A stretch of 64,000 nt of DNA, taken from Dyadobacter flavalbus. GTDB taxonomy: Bacteria > Bacteroidota > Bacteroidia > Cytophagales > Spirosomataceae. Positions 2,137 through 49,819 of this stretch are shown here, in pieces. The stretch's first letter is position 1, and each line of letters starts with the position of its first letter. Position numbers and translations under genes: made by a program. The stretch covers positions 124,001-188,000 of the forward strand of contig NZ_VBSN01000076.1 in the NCBI RefSeq assembly GCF_006149045.1, written 5' to 3'. The notes beneath the pieces were generated by a model that ran no database searches, had not been told where the DNA came from, and saw only the letters and a program-made list of their open reading frames with translations.

Positions 2137-4521
2137 ATGATCAAAAACTATCTGAAAATTGCTTTCCGGAACCTGACGAGGAACAAGGTATTTTCACTCA
2201 TCAACATTGCCGGTCTTTCGCTCGGGCTTACGTGCTGCATGCTGATTGTCCTTTATACAAAGGATGAAATAAGTTTTGACCGCTTTCAGGAAAAAAAAGA
2301 TCATTTGTACAGGATAAAAGTAACCATATCCGATTACACGGAAACGCGTGTAATCGGCAGTACCAATGCCGTTCACGGACCTTCGTTCAAGCAGGAAATT
2401 CCGGAAATACTTCAAATTGTGAGGACACAAAGCAGCTCGTTTGTTGTCAAGAAAGACAATGAACTGCTGAATGAAGATATACTTTTTGCCGATAGCAACT
2501 TTTTCAGCGTTTTTACAATGCCCTTGCTGGCCGGCGATCCGAAAACAGTCCTGAAAGACCTGCATTCGATCGTTCTGGCAGAACAGGTTGCGGAGAAATA
2601 TTTTAACACAAAAGATGCCGTCGGAAAAACGCTGGAACTGAAAATCGGTGATGTGTTTGAAACGTTTACCGTTTCGGGTGTAGCCAGAAAATGCCCGCAG
2701 AATTCATCCGTGCAGTTTGAAGCGGTTTTGCCGTTTCAGTTTCAGGAGGCCAGAGGCTGGACGGACAATGCATGGCTGGGTTTTTATATGAACACCTTTG
2801 TTTTGCTGCATGACAAAGCAAATTACCGAACGGTTATTCCAAAGCTCAATCAGGTTTTCAAAAGCAAATCGGCGGATGAGATCGGCAAGATCAAGGATTT
2901 TAATCAGAAAATCAGTTTCAGTCTTCAGCCTTTCATGGAAGTTCATCTGGACAGCGAATCGAGCGAACTCCGGAACGGGCTCGGACGCGGCAGCAGCCCG
3001 GTTTATTCCTATATCCTGTCCGGAATTGCCGTTTTTATACTGCTGATTGCGTGTATCAATTTTGTTAATCTTACCGTTGCCAGATCGCTTAACCGCGCCA
3101 AGGAAATCGGGGTCCGAAAAGTAGTCGGCAGCCAGCGCAAGCAGCTGATGATCCAGTTTCTGGGAGAATCTTTCCTGCTGTCTTTTATTGCATTCAGTTT
3201 TGCGCTTTTACTGACAAAGTTTATTTTGCCGACCTTTAATATATTGGCCAACAAGGAACTGTCGCTTTCTTATCTTCTTGACGTACAGCTTGTAACGGGT
3301 TATTTACTGCTTTTTTTAATGACCGGAATGATTGCAGGATTTTACCCGGCTTTGGTGCTGTCGGGATTCAGTCCTGCCCAGACGCTTTACAACCGTACCC
3401 GCCTGACACAAAAAAATTACCTTACAAAAAGTCTGGTTGTATTTCAGTTTGCCTTGTCTGTATTTCTGCTGATCGGTACGCTGGTTATTTATGCCCAGTT
3501 CCGGTATCTGATCAGCAAGAAACTCGGGTATAATGACAAGAATCTGATGAGTTTCAGTACCGGCCGGGGCGGACCGGGCAATGAAACACTTGCAACGATC
3601 ATGGAAGAACTGAAAAATACGACCGGTATTGAGTCCGTTGCTGCTTTCAATGGCAATTACAACGGAACCGGTGCAGAAGTGAACGGCAAGAGAATGGATT
3701 TTGGGTACATTGGTGTAGACGATCATTTTCTTTCAACATTGCAGATTCCACTGATAAAAGGACGTAATTTTTCCCGGAGTTATCCTTCCGATCCGCTGCA
3801 ATCCGTTGTGGTGAACGAAGCTTTTGTAAAAGAAGCCGGCTGGCGTGACCCGATTGGCAAGGAAGTGAACTTTGAATGGAAAAACCAGAAACTGAAGGTG
3901 ATCGGAGTAATCCGGGATTATCATTATGCTTCACTGAAAGACACAATCAAGCCGTTATTATTGACGCAGGATCCGAATTACCGCCTGGGAACCGTATATC
4001 TCAAACTGAATGCTCAAAATATTCCGGGGACAATCAGAACCGTGGAAAAGATATTCCGCAAGCACGTTCCGTTTATGCCGTTTGAATACAATTTTGAAGA
4101 TGCTGCCAATTACAAAAGGTACGAATCCGAGGCCCGGTGGAAACAGATGATTACACTTGCCGCGGCACTTTCCATTTTTGTTTCCTGCATTGGTCTGTTT
4201 GGCCTGGCAACCTTCAATGCGGAAACAAGGGTTAAGGAAGTCGGGATCAGGAAAGTACTTGGCGCGTCGGTTTCGAGCATTGCGGCTTTATTATCCACGG
4301 ATTTTGTAAAGCTGGTTTTGCTCGCGATTGTCATTGCGCTGCCGTTTTCCTATTATGCCGTAAATGTCTGGCTTCAGAACTTTCCATATCGTATCAATCT
4401 TACGTCGTGGTATTTTGTTTCTGCTGCATCCATCGCCATTTCTGTCGCCATCCTTACTGTGGGTATTCAAAGTGTAAAAACAGCGTTGCTTGATCCGGTA
4501 AAATCGCTAAGGAGTGAGTAA
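2137..4521 (+). CDS. FtsX/MacB-type ABC permease (array copy 2)
   Basis: Full-length inner-membrane permease of 794 residues with two fused MacB-like halves. Helix 1 (about residues 18-40) is followed by a periplasmic MacB_PCD domain and three helices of the first FtsX domain (about 289-408). A fifth helix (about 430-452) leads to a second periplasmic domain and a second FtsX domain (about 669-782). Visible signatures are LLIACINFVNLT, EIGVRKVVGS, FVSCIGLFGLATF and EVGIRKVLGAS. One chain thus supplies what two MacB or LolC-type subunits normally provide. The ATG starts MIKNYLKIAFRNL, the family's usual first residues. It follows copy 1 by 43 bp. The C-terminus (TALLDPVKSLRSE) departs slightly from the MNPVKSL consensus. 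No ATPase is nearby. Confidence 0.95.
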   Translation: MIKNYLKIAFRNLTRNKVFSLINIAGLSLGLTCCMLIVLYTKDEISFDRFQEKKDHLYRIKVTISDYTETRVIGSTNAVHGPSFKQEIPEILQIVRTQSSSFVVKKDNELLNEDILFADSNFFSVFTMPLLAGDPKTVLKDLHSIVLAEQVAEKYFNTKDAVGKTLELKIGDVFETFTVSGVARKCPQNSSVQFEAVLPFQFQEARGWTDNAWLGFYMNTFVLLHDKANYRTVIPKLNQVFKSKSADEIGKIKDFNQKISFSLQPFMEVHLDSESSELRNGLGRGSSPVYSYILSGIAVFILLIACINFVNLTVARSLNRAKEIGVRKVVGSQRKQLMIQFLGESFLLSFIAFSFALLLTKFILPTFNILANKELSLSYLLDVQLVTGYLLLFLMTGMIAGFYPALVLSGFSPAQTLYNRTRLTQKNYLTKSLVVFQFALSVFLLIGTLVIYAQFRYLISKKLGYNDKNLMSFSTGRGGPGNETLATIMEELKNTTGIESVAAFNGNYNGTGAEVNGKRMDFGYIGVDDHFLSTLQIPLIKGRNFSRSYPSDPLQSVVVNEAFVKEAGWRDPIGKEVNFEWKNQKLKVIGVIRDYHYASLKDTIKPLLLTQDPNYRLGTVYLKLNAQNIPGTIRTVEKIFRKHVPFMPFEYNFEDAANYKRYESEARWKQMITLAAALSIFVSCIGLFGLATFNAETRVKEVGIRKVLGASVSSIAALLSTDFVKLVLLAIVIALPFSYYAVNVWLQNFPYRINLTSWYFVSAASIAISVAILTVGIQSVKTALLDPVKSLRSE

Positions 4522-4612
4522 AAGTACATTTCAGTAAACAGGTTTGGAAACTATTGCGACAGTTTGCCGGATACCGGACCTTTTCGCCCTGGTAGGTTTT
4601 TTGCCCTGCTTC

Positions 4613-4689
4613 TTACCGATCTGGCCGTAATTTTTCAAAGTATCAAAGCCGCTTTGATGAACCCGGTAAAGAGTTTGAGAAGCGAGTAA
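4613..4689 (+). pseudogene. C-terminal relic of an array permease
   Basis: Read in frame to the TAA at 4687-4689, this stretch ends with FQSIKAALMNPVKSLRSE, which is the C-terminus of the neighbouring permeases almost letter for letter. The frame stays open upstream to about 4561, but permease-like sequence fades within roughly 25 codons and no start or membrane helices precede it. It is best read as the stump of an eleventh permease copy lost by deletion between copies 2 and 3. The last 18 codons are the firm part; the exact left edge is a guess. Confidence 0.8.
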
Positions 4690-4726
4690 ACGGAAGTGTC
4701 GGGATTATGGTTATATTTGATAAAAC

Positions 4727-4963
4727 ATGTTTGATATGAAACTGGACCATATAACATTTGATCCCCAGATTATGGGAGGAAAGCCATGTGTCAGGGGAAT
4801 GCGGATTACAGTAGGAACTATCGTCGGACTTGTTGCTTCGGGAAAAAGTTTTGAAGAAATTCTTGAATATTACCCTTATCTGGAAATGGAAGACATCAGG
4901 CAGGCTTTGGCTTATGCAGCCTGGCGTTCCGAAGAAATTGAAGTCCCGTTTGTTGCTGCATGA
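4727..4963 (+). CDS. DUF433 family antitoxin-like protein
   Basis: A 78-residue protein matching the DUF433 pattern: an opening ITFDPQIMGGKPCVRGMRI block, then a short helical segment (VGLVASGKSFEEIL, YPYLEMEDIRQALAYA) that resembles a helix-turn-helix. DUF433 proteins are usually the antitoxin or DNA-binding partner of a PIN-like DUF5615 toxin. No such toxin gene is visible on either side; the gene sits alone between a permease relic and the next permease. An ATG four codons in (4736, MKLDHI) is an equally possible start. A long-armed hairpin at 5001-5032 followed by T residues could terminate it. Confidence 0.85.
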   Translation: MFDMKLDHITFDPQIMGGKPCVRGMRITVGTIVGLVASGKSFEEILEYYPYLEMEDIRQALAYAAWRSEEIEVPFVAA

Positions 4964-4988
4964 ATGTTTACACCATAACTCCAAGCCA

Positions 4989-5107
4989 AGTCCAATACCG
5001 AACAAAAGTGTCCGCTTACGGACACTTTTGTTGTTTTTATATCTGTATAATTATCTGATTATCAGTATATATTTGAATGTTTTACGGCGCTGGTACAATA
5101 TTCATTG
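4989..5107 (+). promoter_or_regulatory. Palindromic operator pair and GG promoter element upstream of permease copy 3 (site A)
   Basis: Two inverted repeats of the form NGTYC-N6-GRACA stand 20 bp apart: AGTCC-AATACC-GAACA (4989-5004) and TGTCC-GCTTAC-GGACA (5009-5024). A TGGTACAATATTC element starts at 5091, 67 bp past the second palindrome and 63 bp before the ATG at 5154. Similar modules occur upstream of six other genes in the window. The second palindrome extends to 14-bp arms (5001-5014 with 5019-5032) followed by a T-rich run, so it may also terminate transcription from the DUF433 gene. Confidence 0.7.
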
Positions 5108-5153
5108 CATAATAGCCGAACCTATGCAACAATGCGTTTGCAATCTGTTAGCC

Positions 5154-7613
5154 ATGATAAAAAATTATTTGAAGATCGCCTGGCGGAACGTGCTTAAAAG
5201 CAAGCTTTTTTCTGCCATTAATGTTTTTGGCCTGTCCGTAGGGATGACCTGCTGCATGCTGCTTTTGCTGTACATTTTAAGTGAAGTTTCTTTTGACAGC
5301 CATCATGAGTTTGGCAAAGATATTTATCTGGTCAGAAGCGTTCGTATTCAGTCCAACGGAGAGAAAATGGATAATCCGCGTGCGCCTTCGCCGTATGCAC
5401 GCGCTATTCAATCAGAATTTCCGGAAGTAAAACAGGTTACAAGATTGTGGCAGAATTTTCTGGAAAACAAAACGCTGCTCAGCGTGGAGGAATCCGGCAA
5501 GTCTGTAAAATCATTTTATGAAACCCGTGGATATCATGTTGATTCTACTTTTTTCGACGTTTTTACCTATCAGTTTCTGGAAGGTGATGCCAATACGGCA
5601 CTCGATGACGCGCATGCGGTTGTTCTGTCGGAAGAAGTGGCCAGAAACCTGTTCGGCAATGCTACTGCGCTCAACAAAATAATCCGTCTGGGCGGTACAA
5701 CGGGAAATGGTGAAAATTTCAGGGTTACAGGTGTTTACAAAGATGAAAGTGCACGTTCGCATATTGATGCCCGTTTTTTTGTTTCGATGAATGCCGGCTG
5801 GGTTGGCGGTTTTCTGAGAGAGCAGAAGCAGGATTTTACCAACAACAATATGTTTTATACATACGTCAGACTGGCGCCCGGAACGGATGCTTCCCGATTT
5901 GAAAAGAAATTGCCTGCATTTATCAATAAATATGCGCGGCAGGATCTGAAGGCGGCGGGTGTTGACAAGCAAATGGCTTTGCTTGCAGTGAACGACATTC
6001 ACCTTTTCAACCAGATTGAAAGCATTGTAACGCCGACGACGAGCTCCACATATCTTTACGTGCTGGCATCCATTGCATTGTTTACGCTCCTTATTGCCTG
6101 CATCAACTTCATGAATCTGGCAACAGCCCGTTCTGCAAAACGTGCAGCCGAAGTGGGCATCCGTAAAGTGATGGGTGCCGGAAAAGGCGGGCTGGTCGGA
6201 CAGTTTCTGGGTGAATCCATGGTGCTTACCTTTATTGCACTGGCTGTGGCCGCGGTGCTCGTTGCATTGTCTTTGCCCGTTTTTAACGAGCTTTCAGGCA
6301 AATCGCTGGAATTCAATGAACTGCTTAAACCTGAAATTATTCTGGCTTTTATCATGCTGGCCTTTGTAACCGGATTGCTGGCGGGCAGTTATCCTGCGTT
6401 TTATTTATCTGTTTTCAACCCGCTTGATGTAATTAAAGGAAAATTTGTCAACTCTGTTTCGGCTACGACTCTGCGTAAAGGGCTTGTTGTGGTGCAGTTT
6501 GTCATTTCCACCGGGCTCGTGGTGGCGACGCTGGTTATTCAGACCCAGATGAAATACATGCGGGAACAGCCGCTTGGCTTTACCAAAGATCAGCAGCTTG
6601 TGATTCCTTTGCGAACCGATGCGGCAAAGCACGCGTATACAGCTTTACGTAATGAGCTTCTGCAGAATAACCAGATTGAAGGCGCTTCCGGAACTTCCTA
6701 CTATCCGGGCATCCTGAACCCGAGCGATATGTCTCTTTATCCGTCAGATCAAAGCATCAACGAGGCAAAATTGGTTAAAACCAACTGGGTAGCTCCCGAT
6801 TTCATGAAAACAATGGGATTTGAAATGGCTGCGGGCCGGATGCTTTCAGCTGATTTTCCCGGAGATACCAATTATAAAATGGTTGTGAATGAGGCAACTA
6901 TACGAAAAATGGGCATTTCGATTAACAAAGCAGTCGGCAGCAGGCTCAATTTCAAAAGCAATACGGACGGCGTAATACATCCTCTGGAAATTGTGGGCGT
7001 TGTAAAGGATTTCCACTTTGCCGATCTGCATCAGGCCATTGAGCCTTATGCCTTGTTCCTGAATATGAACTCCGATTTTAACTACATCGTTACGCATGTC
7101 AGTTCCAGAGACGTCAGCAAAGTGCTTCCGTTTATTGAAAGCAAATGGAAGTCGCTGGTTCCGGACGAACCTTTTACATACAGTTTTCTTGATCAGGATT
7201 TTCAGAATAACTATGCTGCTGATGCCCGTACTTCCCGCATTGTCAATTCTTTCACGCTGATTTCCATTGTTATTTCCTGCCTTGGCCTGTTCGGACTTGC
7301 GGCATTTGCAGCACAGCAGAGGATCAAGGAAATAGGAGTAAGAAAAGTACTGGGTGCTTCTGTGACGAGCATTGTGGCATTGCTTTCGGGCGATTTTGTC
7401 AAACTGGTCATTGTTTCCATTGTCATTGCCACGCCGCTTACATGGTATGTGATGGACAAATGGCTGCAGGGATTTGCTTACAAGATCAGCATTCAGTGGT
7501 GGATGTTTGTGCTGGCCGGCGCGCTTGCCGTTGTTATTGCAATCATTACCGTAAGCACGCAGGCGATTAAAGCAGCCGTTACAAATCCGGTGAAGTCGCT
7601 GAAAAGTGAGTAG
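5154..7613 (+). CDS. FtsX/MacB-type ABC permease (array copy 3)
   Basis: Inner-membrane permease of 819 residues, the longest complete copy in the array. The open frame runs back to 4830 through the DUF433 gene, but the ATG at 5154 gives MIKNYLKIAWRNV, the start shared by the paralogues. Two MacB_PCD plus FtsX halves are present, with LIACINFMNLATARS and EVGIRKVMGAG in the first and VISCLGLFGLAAFAAQ and EIGVRKVLGASV in the second. The C-terminus reads AAVTNPVKSLKSE. Its upstream region carries operator pair A, so it probably starts its own transcript. The 3' flank is a field of short degenerate repeats. It lacks its own nucleotide-binding subunit. Confidence 0.95.
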   Translation: MIKNYLKIAWRNVLKSKLFSAINVFGLSVGMTCCMLLLLYILSEVSFDSHHEFGKDIYLVRSVRIQSNGEKMDNPRAPSPYARAIQSEFPEVKQVTRLWQNFLENKTLLSVEESGKSVKSFYETRGYHVDSTFFDVFTYQFLEGDANTALDDAHAVVLSEEVARNLFGNATALNKIIRLGGTTGNGENFRVTGVYKDESARSHIDARFFVSMNAGWVGGFLREQKQDFTNNNMFYTYVRLAPGTDASRFEKKLPAFINKYARQDLKAAGVDKQMALLAVNDIHLFNQIESIVTPTTSSTYLYVLASIALFTLLIACINFMNLATARSAKRAAEVGIRKVMGAGKGGLVGQFLGESMVLTFIALAVAAVLVALSLPVFNELSGKSLEFNELLKPEIILAFIMLAFVTGLLAGSYPAFYLSVFNPLDVIKGKFVNSVSATTLRKGLVVVQFVISTGLVVATLVIQTQMKYMREQPLGFTKDQQLVIPLRTDAAKHAYTALRNELLQNNQIEGASGTSYYPGILNPSDMSLYPSDQSINEAKLVKTNWVAPDFMKTMGFEMAAGRMLSADFPGDTNYKMVVNEATIRKMGISINKAVGSRLNFKSNTDGVIHPLEIVGVVKDFHFADLHQAIEPYALFLNMNSDFNYIVTHVSSRDVSKVLPFIESKWKSLVPDEPFTYSFLDQDFQNNYAADARTSRIVNSFTLISIVISCLGLFGLAAFAAQQRIKEIGVRKVLGASVTSIVALLSGDFVKLVIVSIVIATPLTWYVMDKWLQGFAYKISIQWWMFVLAGALAVVIAIITVSTQAIKAAVTNPVKSLKSE

Positions 7614-47180: not shown

Positions 47181-47579
47181 TATCGGTATGTATTCGGAAA
47201 AAATATAGATGGTTACTTAGAAGCAAATAACAAGATTTTTCATATTTATTTTATAATAAATGTATGCTTGCAACGCTTGAAACAAAGGTCTGCAAATTGT
47301 ACTGCAAGTATACGGTAAACTGAACGTGTACGAACACGATTGATAAAATCGCGTGTGTGCTCGAACACTTTTTTGAATTATACTTGGAATAACGGATTTA
47401 ACAATTAATTTTGTAATCAGTAATATAAATAGAATATTATTCCTGACCGAGCCACTATTGCATTCCTAATATTTCAGCATTTAATCTATCTGACCTTATT
47501 CCTATCCTTAACCGTTTCTGAATTCCTGCTAATCCTAAATCCTGAATAAAGCGTATGCCGTAAAAAGCGTACGCTTTTG
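47181..47579. other. 399-bp gap upstream of the LacI-type gene
   Basis: No gene is seen. Two signals stand out. One is a GAACAC direct repeat (near 47331 and 47364) flanking CGATT-GATAA-AATCG, which can form a short hairpin. The other is a perfect 8-bp inverted repeat AAAGCGTA (47548-47555) with TACGCTTT (47570-47577) just before the reductase stop codon. Either might be a LacI-type operator or a weak terminator; neither has a clear T run serving the reductase gene. Confidence 0.4.
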
Positions 47580-48638
47580 TTAATTACGGCCGGAAGGAAA
47601 TTCAACTTTTACATCGTCACTGTCTACATAAGCGGAGCAGGTCAGGATCCAGCCTTCTTTGAGGTCGCGGTCTGTTAAAACTTCATTTACGCTCATTCTT
47701 ACTGCGCCGTTTGTGCATATTGCTGCACAGGCAGAACAGCGGCCGCCTTTGCAGCTGTAAGGCAGATGGATTCCCGCAGAAAGTGCGGCATCCAGAATGG
47801 TCGTATGGGCCGGTACAAGCAACCTGTACTCTCTGTTCCTGAAATGTAAATCAATGGTATGCGGAAAAGAAACCGTTTCAGGTTTCGGAACGGCAGGAAT
47901 TACAAAACTTTCTTTCCGGATTTGTGATGAAGTGAAACCCATAAAATGCAGCGTAATTTCTATGGAACGCATCAGTTCGTAAGGTCCGCAGATAAAAAAA
48001 CGCGCGAGTTCAGGCGAAAAAGCGAGTGACTTGCTCACAAGCTGTTCCAGCCGCGTGTTATTGATCCTGCCGCGAATACCCGTCCAGTCGTCTGAGGGCT
48101 GGCTGTGGATTTGTATGACTTTCAGCCGTTCCGGAAACTGTTGCTGCAACTGCTCGATACGTTCCTGAAACAGCGTGCTTTTCGTGTTTCTGCTGGCGTA
48201 AATCAATGTGATCCGGCTTTTGCTCTCATCGGTCAGCGCCTGTTTCATAATAGAGAAAAGAGGCGTTATGCCGCTTCCGGCACCGAGCAGCATAATGTCA
48301 TGCGGTGTCTCATCCGTTTTTTCAAGCACAAAACGGCCTGCTGCAGGCAAGGCTGTAAATACATCTCCGACCTGAACGGAATGTACCCAGAAACGCGAAA
48401 TTTCACCATTGGGAACCCGCTTGACGGTAATGGCCGGAAAGGCATCCGCATCCGGCGCAGAACTCATGGAATAGGAACGCCGTACTTCATGGCCGTGCTG
48501 CGGAATGAGAAACGTAAGAAACTGGCCTGCTTTGTACGTAAACGGCTTTCCGTCGGTTCTTTCAAACAAAAACGTCTTGGTATCTTCACTTTCCGGAATG
48601 ATTTGTCTTACGCGAAGGGAAATGGTGGAGTCGGACAT
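47580..48638 (-). CDS. PaaE-like ferredoxin-NAD(P) reductase with C-terminal 2Fe-2S domain
   Basis: A 352-residue flavin-dependent reductase. In order: a FAD-binding barrel with RRSYSMSSAPD (about residues 53-63), a NAD(P)-binding domain opening LLGAGSGITPLFSIM (about 116-130), and a plant-type 2Fe-2S ferredoxin domain with CKGGRCSACAAIC (about 297-309) and a fourth Cys near 337 (ILTCSAY). It passes electrons from NAD(P)H to a partner oxygenase, desaturase or hydroxylase. The unknown DxDD protein gene ends 12 bp upstream on the same strand, so they are one operon and may work together. No oxygenase gene is nearby. Confidence 0.92.
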   Translation of the reverse strand: MSDSTISLRVRQIIPESEDTKTFLFERTDGKPFTYKAGQFLTFLIPQHGHEVRRSYSMSSAPDADAFPAITVKRVPNGEISRFWVHSVQVGDVFTALPAAGRFVLEKTDETPHDIMLLGAGSGITPLFSIMKQALTDESKSRITLIYASRNTKSTLFQERIEQLQQQFPERLKVIQIHSQPSDDWTGIRGRINNTRLEQLVSKSLAFSPELARFFICGPYELMRSIEITLHFMGFTSSQIRKESFVIPAVPKPETVSFPHTIDLHFRNREYRLLVPAHTTILDAALSAGIHLPYSCKGGRCSACAAICTNGAVRMSVNEVLTDRDLKEGWILTCSAYVDSDDVKVEFPSGRN

Positions 48639-48650
48639 CAGCGGGTGTCT

Positions 48651-49760
48651 TTATTGAATGTTTTTTAAGTAAGACTTTTCAACAAGAAAATTATTCCAGA
48701 CCATTTCGTACTCCGCCAGCAAAGTCCAGCAATGCGCCTCGCAAACCCAGTGCATGTGAAAAAGCGGGCTGACGGAAATCCTGTAAAGCAAAGGATTTTC
48801 ATACGCTGTCAGCAATCCGGCAATGAAGAAGTAAAAACCTTTGAAGTCATGAACCGTATAATCTTCAACGGGAATTCTTTCTGTTTCCACGCCGAGCCGC
48901 ATCAGGGAAGTGGAAAGAATCACTCGGTCCATCGGATTGTCGGTTTTTGCAGCAAGCTGAATCGTGTCTTCAGTCAGTTTCCTTTTAATACTTTGAAGAG
49001 CCGGCGGATCGAAAGCTGCAATCAGCCGTGATACATGATAAATAATCAGCGGCGTTCTCGGATATTGATGTGCACAGCGGAAAGGTGCAGTCCGGTAACG
49101 GTCTGTTTCAATGACCGAACGGATGTAAGCAAGGCTGTCGTGATCGTGCCGGTTCAAAGGCAGGTTATGCCGGAAAATCAGCAGCATCAGATTGCTCAGC
49201 ACGCAGACGTCAAATTCAATATACATATTCTTGCCAAACCATGTGGAGTAAGCCTGCAACGCGCTGTATTCCGGATACGTGTTCCGGATGCGCCGTCCGT
49301 TTCCGCTGGCATGCAGCGGCAGTTTCTGTTTGAGCCAAAGCATTTCATCCGTTGATGCTTTGGAGGTCAGGTAAATGAATGCTGTATCATCAATATCGTC
49401 AGGAATGCGGAAATGGTCAAAATGACGGAATATATGGCCATTCGGAAAATGCATCGAAGGTTTTGTTTTCCAGAAATTATAGGTTTTCAAGCCGTCTTTG
49501 TTCTGAAATGCAGGATAGTTTTTAATAACCTTGCCGCAAATTCTGTCAATCTGGTTTTGAAGTTCAGCGTCCGCCTGATTCCGGACTGATTGCAGCGTAT
49601 AGCAGATAATGGCTGAAAAAAATATGGTCGTATCCGGCCTGTTATAACCAATAACCGGATTAACGCGGTATGCAGGAAAAATACCTTCCGGAAAATAACG
49701 GTTTCCTTCAGATTGCAGACTTTCGGTATGGTCAATGAATTTCCGCAGATTTTGCTTCAT
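48651..49760 (-). CDS. Unknown protein with a class II terpene-cyclase-like DxDDTA motif
   Basis: A 369-residue soluble protein of unrecognised family. It is mostly helical and has no signal peptide or membrane segment. Residues 121-127 read DDIDDTA, the DxDDTA form that holds the catalytic acid of class II terpene cyclases (squalene-hopene cyclase, copalyl diphosphate synthases) and lies in an alpha/alpha barrel. Aromatic residues are frequent (TYNFWKTKPSMHFPNGH, HFDHFRIP, CEAHCWTLLAEYEMVW). At 369 residues it is much shorter than those enzymes, so it could be a single-barrel relative or merely share the fold. It precedes the 2Fe-2S reductase gene by 12 bp in the same operon. A terpenoid role is an inference from one motif. 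Confidence 0.6.
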   Translation of the reverse strand: MKQNLRKFIDHTESLQSEGNRYFPEGIFPAYRVNPVIGYNRPDTTIFFSAIICYTLQSVRNQADAELQNQIDRICGKVIKNYPAFQNKDGLKTYNFWKTKPSMHFPNGHIFRHFDHFRIPDDIDDTAFIYLTSKASTDEMLWLKQKLPLHASGNGRRIRNTYPEYSALQAYSTWFGKNMYIEFDVCVLSNLMLLIFRHNLPLNRHDHDSLAYIRSVIETDRYRTAPFRCAHQYPRTPLIIYHVSRLIAAFDPPALQSIKRKLTEDTIQLAAKTDNPMDRVILSTSLMRLGVETERIPVEDYTVHDFKGFYFFIAGLLTAYENPLLYRISVSPLFHMHWVCEAHCWTLLAEYEMVWNNFLVEKSYLKNIQ

Positions 49761-49784: not shown

Positions 49785-49819
49785 AAAAAAAGAAACCCTG
49801 CCTTTCAGACAGGGTTTTT
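49785..49819 (-). terminator. Terminator after the Nfu-like gene
   Basis: Stem AAACCCTG (49793-49800) with CAGGGTTT (49810-49817). On the reverse strand it is followed by a T run (A run at 49785-49791), so it ends the Nfu transcript just before the DxDD gene. A T run on the forward side makes it potentially bidirectional. Confidence 0.8.

Follow-up and report, generated by a model that had tools for sequence, protein, structure and literature searches.

A putative single-domain class II terpene-cyclase-like protein of Dyadobacter flavalbus and its relatives among Bacteroidota

The window analysed here is a stretch of 64,000 nucleotides from Dyadobacter flavalbus (contig NZ_VBSN01000076.1). 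On its reverse strand lie two open reading frames with ATG starts: the first (48651..49760) encodes a protein of 369 residues that is described below, on the grounds of its reading frame, conservation, model and profile alignment, as a putative single-domain class II terpene-cyclase-like protein, and the second (47580..48638) encodes a PaaE-like FAD/NAD(P)/2Fe-2S reductase of 352 residues, recognized by its reading frame and domain matches. According to the coordinates, 12 bp separate the cyclase gene from the downstream reductase gene, so the arrangement described in an earlier reading of the sequence alone, i.e., a motif-bearing protein of 369 residues followed at that distance by a 2Fe-2S reductase, is indeed present. 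The pair is flanked by terminator-like elements, both of them consensus matches only: a hairpin with a T run that separates the cyclase gene from the Nfu-like gene upstream of it (49793..49817, reverse strand), and an inverted repeat directly after the reductase stop codon (47548..47577) that is terminator-like on the forward strand only; in the 5.2-kb stretch, ten such sites were found where 6.2 were expected. The two genes may be co-transcribed. Elsewhere in the window (2137-29747, forward strand) there is a run of ten ORFs of 792-927 residues, read as a tandemly expanded permease family, the five of the ten that were scanned being MacB_PCD/FtsX permeases.

Residues 121-127 of the putative cyclase read D121-D122-I123-D124-D125-T126-A127. 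The sequence-only reading had placed a DxDDTA motif, the acid motif of class II terpene cyclases, over that whole span; the letters DDIDDTA are there, but the motif proper occupies residues 122-127 (codons at 49380..49397, reverse strand), and the earlier span was one residue too wide. Within it, D122 is the predicted base and D124 the predicted acid, roles assigned from the alignment with the DxDTT motif of AsDMS, the drimenol synthase of Aquimarina spongiae, and from motif likeness to D271/D273 of the fungal enzyme AstC. Variation of the motif among homologues had been named beforehand as a weak point of this assignment, and none was found at either aspartate. The first scan gave 65 full-length proteins (its loci plus the window copy, minus the partial copies L066 and L067), and I119-P120-D121-D122-x-D124-D125-T126 is invariant in all of them. 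A wider set, which leaves out L066, L067, the truncated L111 and the distant L081, comprises 133 rows, or 108 distinct sequences once one allows for 25 genes from the family of the window that entered twice, from two collections; D122, D124, N190 and Y233 are each conserved in 133/133 rows, D125 in 131 and T126 in 126. Given this invariance across 65/65 proteins and 133/133 rows, the motif is not a chance occurrence. The distant relative L081 (931-2007, E 1.7e-8) shows DPDADCT in place of PDDxDDT, reads SPYYP at the Tyr position and adjoins a ribonucleotide reductase small-chain gene.

A fold other than the cyclase barrel, the second weak point named in advance, was not obtained either. The AlphaFold2 model, built on an alignment (A1) of 39 sequences chosen from 67 loci, has a pLDDT of 85.6 and a pTM of 0.88, with residues 99-119, just ahead of the acid motif, below a pLDDT of 50, and the fold predicted in it is that of class II terpene cyclases, an alpha/alpha barrel. 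In Foldseek against the PDB, the first ten rows are drimenol synthase chains (E 1.2e-9 to 1.5e-8), and then come, at E > 1e-3, MstE, SsDMS and, interspersed with barrels of the alpha-2-macroglobulin type and of sugar enzymes, squalene-hopene cyclase. The VIA comparison gives drimenol synthases Z scores of 28.7-29.2 over 282-286 residues (2.6 Å, 16% identity), the best match being the cyclase domain of AsDMS (Foldseek E 1.2e-9; Z 29, 286 residues, 2.6 Å), followed by an Actinoplanes protein (22.8), MstE (22.6), 8paj (22.5), 2sqc (22.1), 8pak (21.8) and SsDMS (20.2), 8paj and 8pak being short chains titled squalene-hopene cyclase, and, at 18.6 (cellobiose 2-epimerase) and less, by sugar epimerases, which share this fold class. 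Residue 1 of the model aligns with residue 229 or 239 of the drimenol synthase chains, beyond their HAD domain. Since the match begins there, the window protein corresponds to the cyclase domain alone, and its N-terminus shows no HAD phosphatase domain, as judged by the start of the model alignment and by Pfam.

The sequence relationship behind this structural likeness is a distant one. No Pfam or NCBIfam model, terpene-cyclase models and the Pfam SQHop_cyclase profile included, matches the window protein, and one further member, from the family called f5 below, had no NCBIfam match. The weak Pfam matches scattered among 48 members (to 15 families, none matched by more than two members; lowest E 0.0047) were taken as chance, and so were the single PDB matches obtained with the protein itself (E 0.33) and with the closer alignment A1 (E 0.28). 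Among the PDB sequence searches, only the wider profile A2, made of 48 sequences including the window's, the others being 27-68% identical to it, reached drimenol synthase: out of 177,635 PDB sequences, 9mhs came first (E 3.2e-4), then two constructs of AstC (E 0.046 and 0.16), then a heat-shock protein (E 0.62).

On the A2 alignment, D122 and D124 fall on both Asp of the DxDTT motif and Y233 (codon 49062..49064, reverse strand) on the second Tyr of RYYP in 9mhs, which, together with the barrel fold, supports the acid-motif assignment. The entries 9mhs and 9mlo, also drimenol synthases, are offset by 10 residues against those of AsDMS (9m7d/e/f): AsDMS residues D331, D333, Y373, R378, R380, R425, Y426 and Y427 all fit the letters of 9mhs at a shift of 10, also visible in the VIA alignments, and Y233 therefore corresponds to Y427. 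Counted on the same alignment, N190 (codon 49191..49193, reverse strand) and Y233 fall on residues 337 and 374 of the AstC chain, which a shift of 13 identifies as N324 and Y361. The mutational data reported for the two enzymes include these positions: AsDMS loses all activity as D331A/N, D333N or Y427F (PMC12365925), and AstC, whose acid is named as D273, loses its product as D271A/N, T274A, N324A or Y361F (PMC13244436). By alignment only, then, the Asn and Tyr that position the acid appear to be present in the window protein. The diphosphate-binding residues are a different matter. Ala variants of Y373, R378 and Y426 of AsDMS are reported to lose all or 96% of the activity, R380, R425 and R513, which also contact the diphosphate, being dispensable (PMC12365925); the former three align, in a region where the alignment is weak, with W174, M179 and Q232. 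Seemingly not kept, they suggest that the head group of the substrate is held differently than in AsDMS, unless the alignment is off there.

The first collection scan returned 66 loci, 34 of them from Dyadobacter and the others from Runella, Telluribacter, Arcicella, Emticicia, Pseudarcicella and further genera, the closest match being that of D. sediminis (92% identity). With the A1 profile, the family was found in 159/200 genomes (31/36 genera) of the window's GTDB family, in 60/294 genomes (27/101 genera) of another family of its class (f5), in all four genomes of a family of another class (f13) and in 14 of 395 genomes spread across the phylum. Two branches can be told apart. All 31 f5 cyclases examined are extended at the N-terminus by a stretch that contains a hydrophobic 11-mer and looks like a Sec signal peptide, a call made with a simple hydropathy rule and not with a signal-peptide predictor. 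The same rule flags none of five f13 rows and 2/97 rows of the window's family; in both, the ORF starts too far upstream, and the duplicates of these rows (L003, L025), which begin at the homologous start, pass unflagged. In a tree of 51 proteins, the 31 f5 rows stand apart from the rest with a support of 100/100. Two f5 genomes hold adjacent cyclase genes (L162, ~3044-5460; G620, contig C76, 6671-8997), and in each pair one copy has one in-frame stop.

How does the reductase fit into this picture? It matches the Pfam domains FAD_binding_6, NAD_binding_1 and Fer2 and scores 223.8 bits on the PaaE model TIGR02160, whose cut-off is 420.8, so that the label PaaE-like given earlier suits it and, judged by these profiles, it is PaaE-like and not PaaE. 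It adjoins the cyclase gene in 34/34 named Dyadobacter loci as well as in the window, the spacing ranging from about -7 to 33 bp and staying below 10 bp in 20 of the 35 loci, some starts being extrapolated from the alignment. In contrast, the adjacency appears in none of the 32 non-Dyadobacter loci, four of which are too short for a full test (L067 ends inside the cyclase gene, and L039, L051 and L056 end less than 0.9 kb downstream). Of the two-gene module conceived in the sequence-only reading, the cyclase part is largely supported, while the pairing is confined to Dyadobacter and makes the module a lineage trait rather than the core of the family. It could even be that the reductase is functionally unrelated to the cyclase and is a stable Dyadobacter neighbour serving an unlinked oxygenase, an explanation compatible with the cyclase reading to which we give somewhat less than an even chance. 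The restriction to one genus fits it, and so do the lack of an oxygenase beside the reductase and the existence elsewhere in the genome of a PaaE-like paralogue (40% identical) adjoining an aminotransferase gene; the short gaps and the hairpins that flank the gene pair, the downstream one on the other strand only, speak against it. Other lineages have other neighbours. In Emticicia (L053) and Pseudarcicella, a close same-strand gene encodes an MDR reductase (Pfam on one member, same cluster), and in an f13 genome (L084:8113-10992) genes for a membrane Acyltransferase_3 protein, the cyclase and a GNAT acetyltransferase follow each other at 1-2 bp; they may be tailoring genes of the particular lineage or neighbours by chance. 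A search of the neighbours in the window's family for a terpenoid cluster gave nothing decisive (among them an outer-membrane barrel, MazG, thiamine pyrophosphokinase and the MDR reductase), and none of those scanned outside Dyadobacter is by name a terpenoid gene.

A cyclase also needs a substrate, and the genome of the window encodes two polyprenyl synthases and one squalene/phytoene synthase, so an isoprenoid chain is available. The latter gene lies beside lycopene-cyclase and amine-oxidase-type genes, the amine-oxidase-type one being read as phytoene-desaturase-like, in what looks like a carotenoid locus. Cyclization of squalene to hopanoids was rejected, since the sole squalene/phytoene synthase sits in that locus and the squalene-hopene cyclase family PF13243 has no match in the genome.

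The search for prenyl-type genes near relatives, proposed together with the initial reading, returned an isoprenoid-synthase-fold protein beside cyclases of f5, though in the window's own GTDB family it occurs in 0/200 genomes. This partner family, of about 330 residues, is present in 101/294 f5 genomes, with genes at L094:8294-9313, L169:4792-5781, L170:4828-5952, L160:4884-5888, L093:10553-11608 and L163:4856-5971. In four fetched loci it precedes the cyclase gene on the same strand (gaps of -83, 3, 8 and 12 bp), and in two it is convergent with it; the ACAD and, by eye, YggS-like neighbours were taken as housekeeping. Its members have no Pfam match above the cut-off, but three of the five scanned reach polyprenyl_synt at E 0.02-0.05. 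The partner model (pLDDT 95.4, 27 sequences) has dehydrosqualene synthase as its best Foldseek row (E 1.6e-3, none below 1e-3), and its top VIA row, tied with others at Z 17.2, is 5yo8, a beta-C25/C30/C35-prene synthase that we take to be the YtpB-type enzyme BalTS. The 50 VIA rows listed (Z 15.1-17.2) are titled isoprenoid synthases, prenyltransferases and terpene synthases, one being titled only Sat1646. The predicted fold of the partner is thus the all-alpha one of class I isoprenoid synthases. Its residues invariant across the 27 sequences (D94, D98 and N213-D214-x-x-D217-x-x-K220-D221) resemble, without matching them, the motifs DYLDNLxD and DY(F,L,W)IDxxED given for class IB, YtpB-type, terpene synthases (PMC7839719).

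Partner and cyclase go together beyond the loci in which they touch. The partner is found in 50/60 f5 genomes with the cyclase and in 51/234 of the others, where it stands without it; by genus, in 26/27 with the cyclase versus 18/74 without (Fisher 2e-11, kinship between genera uncorrected). In 23 of the 60 cyclase genomes, no more than 250 bp separate the matched stretches of partner and cyclase. The 51 f5 genomes with the partner alone, and its absence from the window's own family, count against the link. In the tree, the eight linked cyclases need three changes, of which the well-supported branches force one. Across the phylum sample, the partner occurs in 5/14 genomes with the cyclase versus 4/381 others, three of these four being short partial matches; three of the five co-occurrences are f13 genomes, with the partner on another contig and cyclases without the signal.

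Taken together, the window gene most likely encodes an enzyme that turns chain-like isoprenoids into rings. We regard as probable the whole reading, in which a cytosolic single-domain (beta-type) cyclase works through the proton chemistry of D124, D122, N190 and Y233, perhaps with the assistance of the reductase in Dyadobacter. A linear isoprenoid would be bound in the cavity of the barrel, with its head group held otherwise than in AsDMS; D124, set in position by N190 and Y233, would protonate the terminal double bond, a carbocation cascade would then close at least one ring, and the last proton would go to D122 or to water. In Dyadobacter, the PaaE-like reductase might supply electrons for a last step of product formation, catalysed by a separate oxygenase or desaturase. 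Against this stand the lack of a matching Pfam or NCBIfam terpene-cyclase model, the diphosphate contacts that seem not to be kept, the poorly modelled residues 99-119 and, in the window's family, the neighbours outside Dyadobacter that are not terpenoid genes by name and the absence of the f5 partner. The f5 branch, moreover, looks exported, which fits badly with prenyl diphosphates of the cytosol; a diphosphate-free membrane lipid as the substrate would explain both that signal and the apparently missing diphosphate residues. The protein might also be a class II cyclase by descent only, retaining the Asp acid for another reaction, such as the isomerization of prenyl lipids, hydration or the modification of a membrane lipid or quinone. 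We hold this to be improbable: the seemingly unkept diphosphate contacts, the export-like branch and the lack of a recognized terpenoid gene cluster around the cyclase in the window's family are in its favour, but the full proton-donating set D/D/N/Y is invariant and even the exported branch tracks the isoprenoid-synthase-fold partner. Very improbable is an alpha/alpha-toroid carbohydrate enzyme (an epimerase or GH88/GH105-like hydrolase) that just resembles a terpene cyclase, since, even if exported relatives would suit a glycan enzyme and that fold class occurs lower in the VIA list (the cellobiose 2-epimerase; YteR, Z 17.3), it stays some ten Z units under AsDMS, the first three chain sequences found by the A2 profile are terpene cyclases, and the family co-occurs with an isoprenoid-synthase fold.

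Starting from the cyclase reading, a two-enzyme terpenoid pathway of Bacteroidota can be imagined, in which a cytosolic isoprenoid synthase strips or joins prenyl diphosphates and the cyclase, exported in one branch and cytosolic in that of the window, closes the rings of a diphosphate-free lipid. We think this extension rather unlikely as a whole; if true, it would mean periplasmic terpene cyclization, and a polycyclic membrane lipid or pigment near to the core in the bacterial family to which the window belongs. The export-signal-like branch and the partner family nonetheless suggest that a diphosphate-free lipid may be cyclized outside the cytosol, and a cyclase family so widespread and yet missed by standard models suggests that Bacteroidota have more terpenoid capacity than is counted at present.

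Among the known systems, AsDMS, of the HAD-TCbeta type and from a genus of the same phylum as the window organism, is the closest in fold, and its acid motif and catalytic Tyr align with those of the window protein. Unlike it, the window protein lacks the HAD phosphatase domain, has DxDDT instead of DxDTT, seems not to keep the diphosphate-binding residues in the alignment and is only ~16% identical over the aligned residues. AstC shares the Asn and the Tyr by profile alignment, but it is a fungal HAD-TC with the HAD domain fused and a drimane-type product. MstE, the merosterolic acid synthase from Scytonema (6sbb-6sbg), is a single-domain protein of the same size, structurally further than AsDMS, with complexes whose PDB titles name prenylated dihydroxybenzoate. 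Squalene-hopene cyclase (2sqc; 8paj and 8pak, of 342 and 347 residues) shares the barrel and carries a DxDDTA-type motif, and differs in having the Pfam SQHop_cyclase domain that both the window protein and its genome lack. In the open-access literature, no title or opening abstract among the matches listed deals with such a Bacteroidota cyclase family, its export-signal-like branch or its f5 partner, which to that extent appear to be new. The f5 locus, in which a class II cyclase is joined by an isoprenoid synthase of class I type, follows the logic of YtpB and SqhC of Bacillus subtilis, a C35 sesquarterpene system in which SqhC is a two-domain squalene-hopene-type cyclase; the partner family has motifs of its own. 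There, YtpB is described as ionizing the diphosphate and closing the first ring, and SqhC as closing more (PMC7839719), and by analogy the f5 pair may divide the work alike. The kind of protein is already known, as MstE is a single-domain class II cyclase and, in the view put forward by the AsDMS authors, HAD-TCbeta goes back to a standalone TCbeta enzyme that became fused to a HAD phosphatase (PMC12365925; similarly PMC9128629). With the AsDMS-type barrel as by far the nearest solved structure to a standalone family, that fusion proposal becomes testable.
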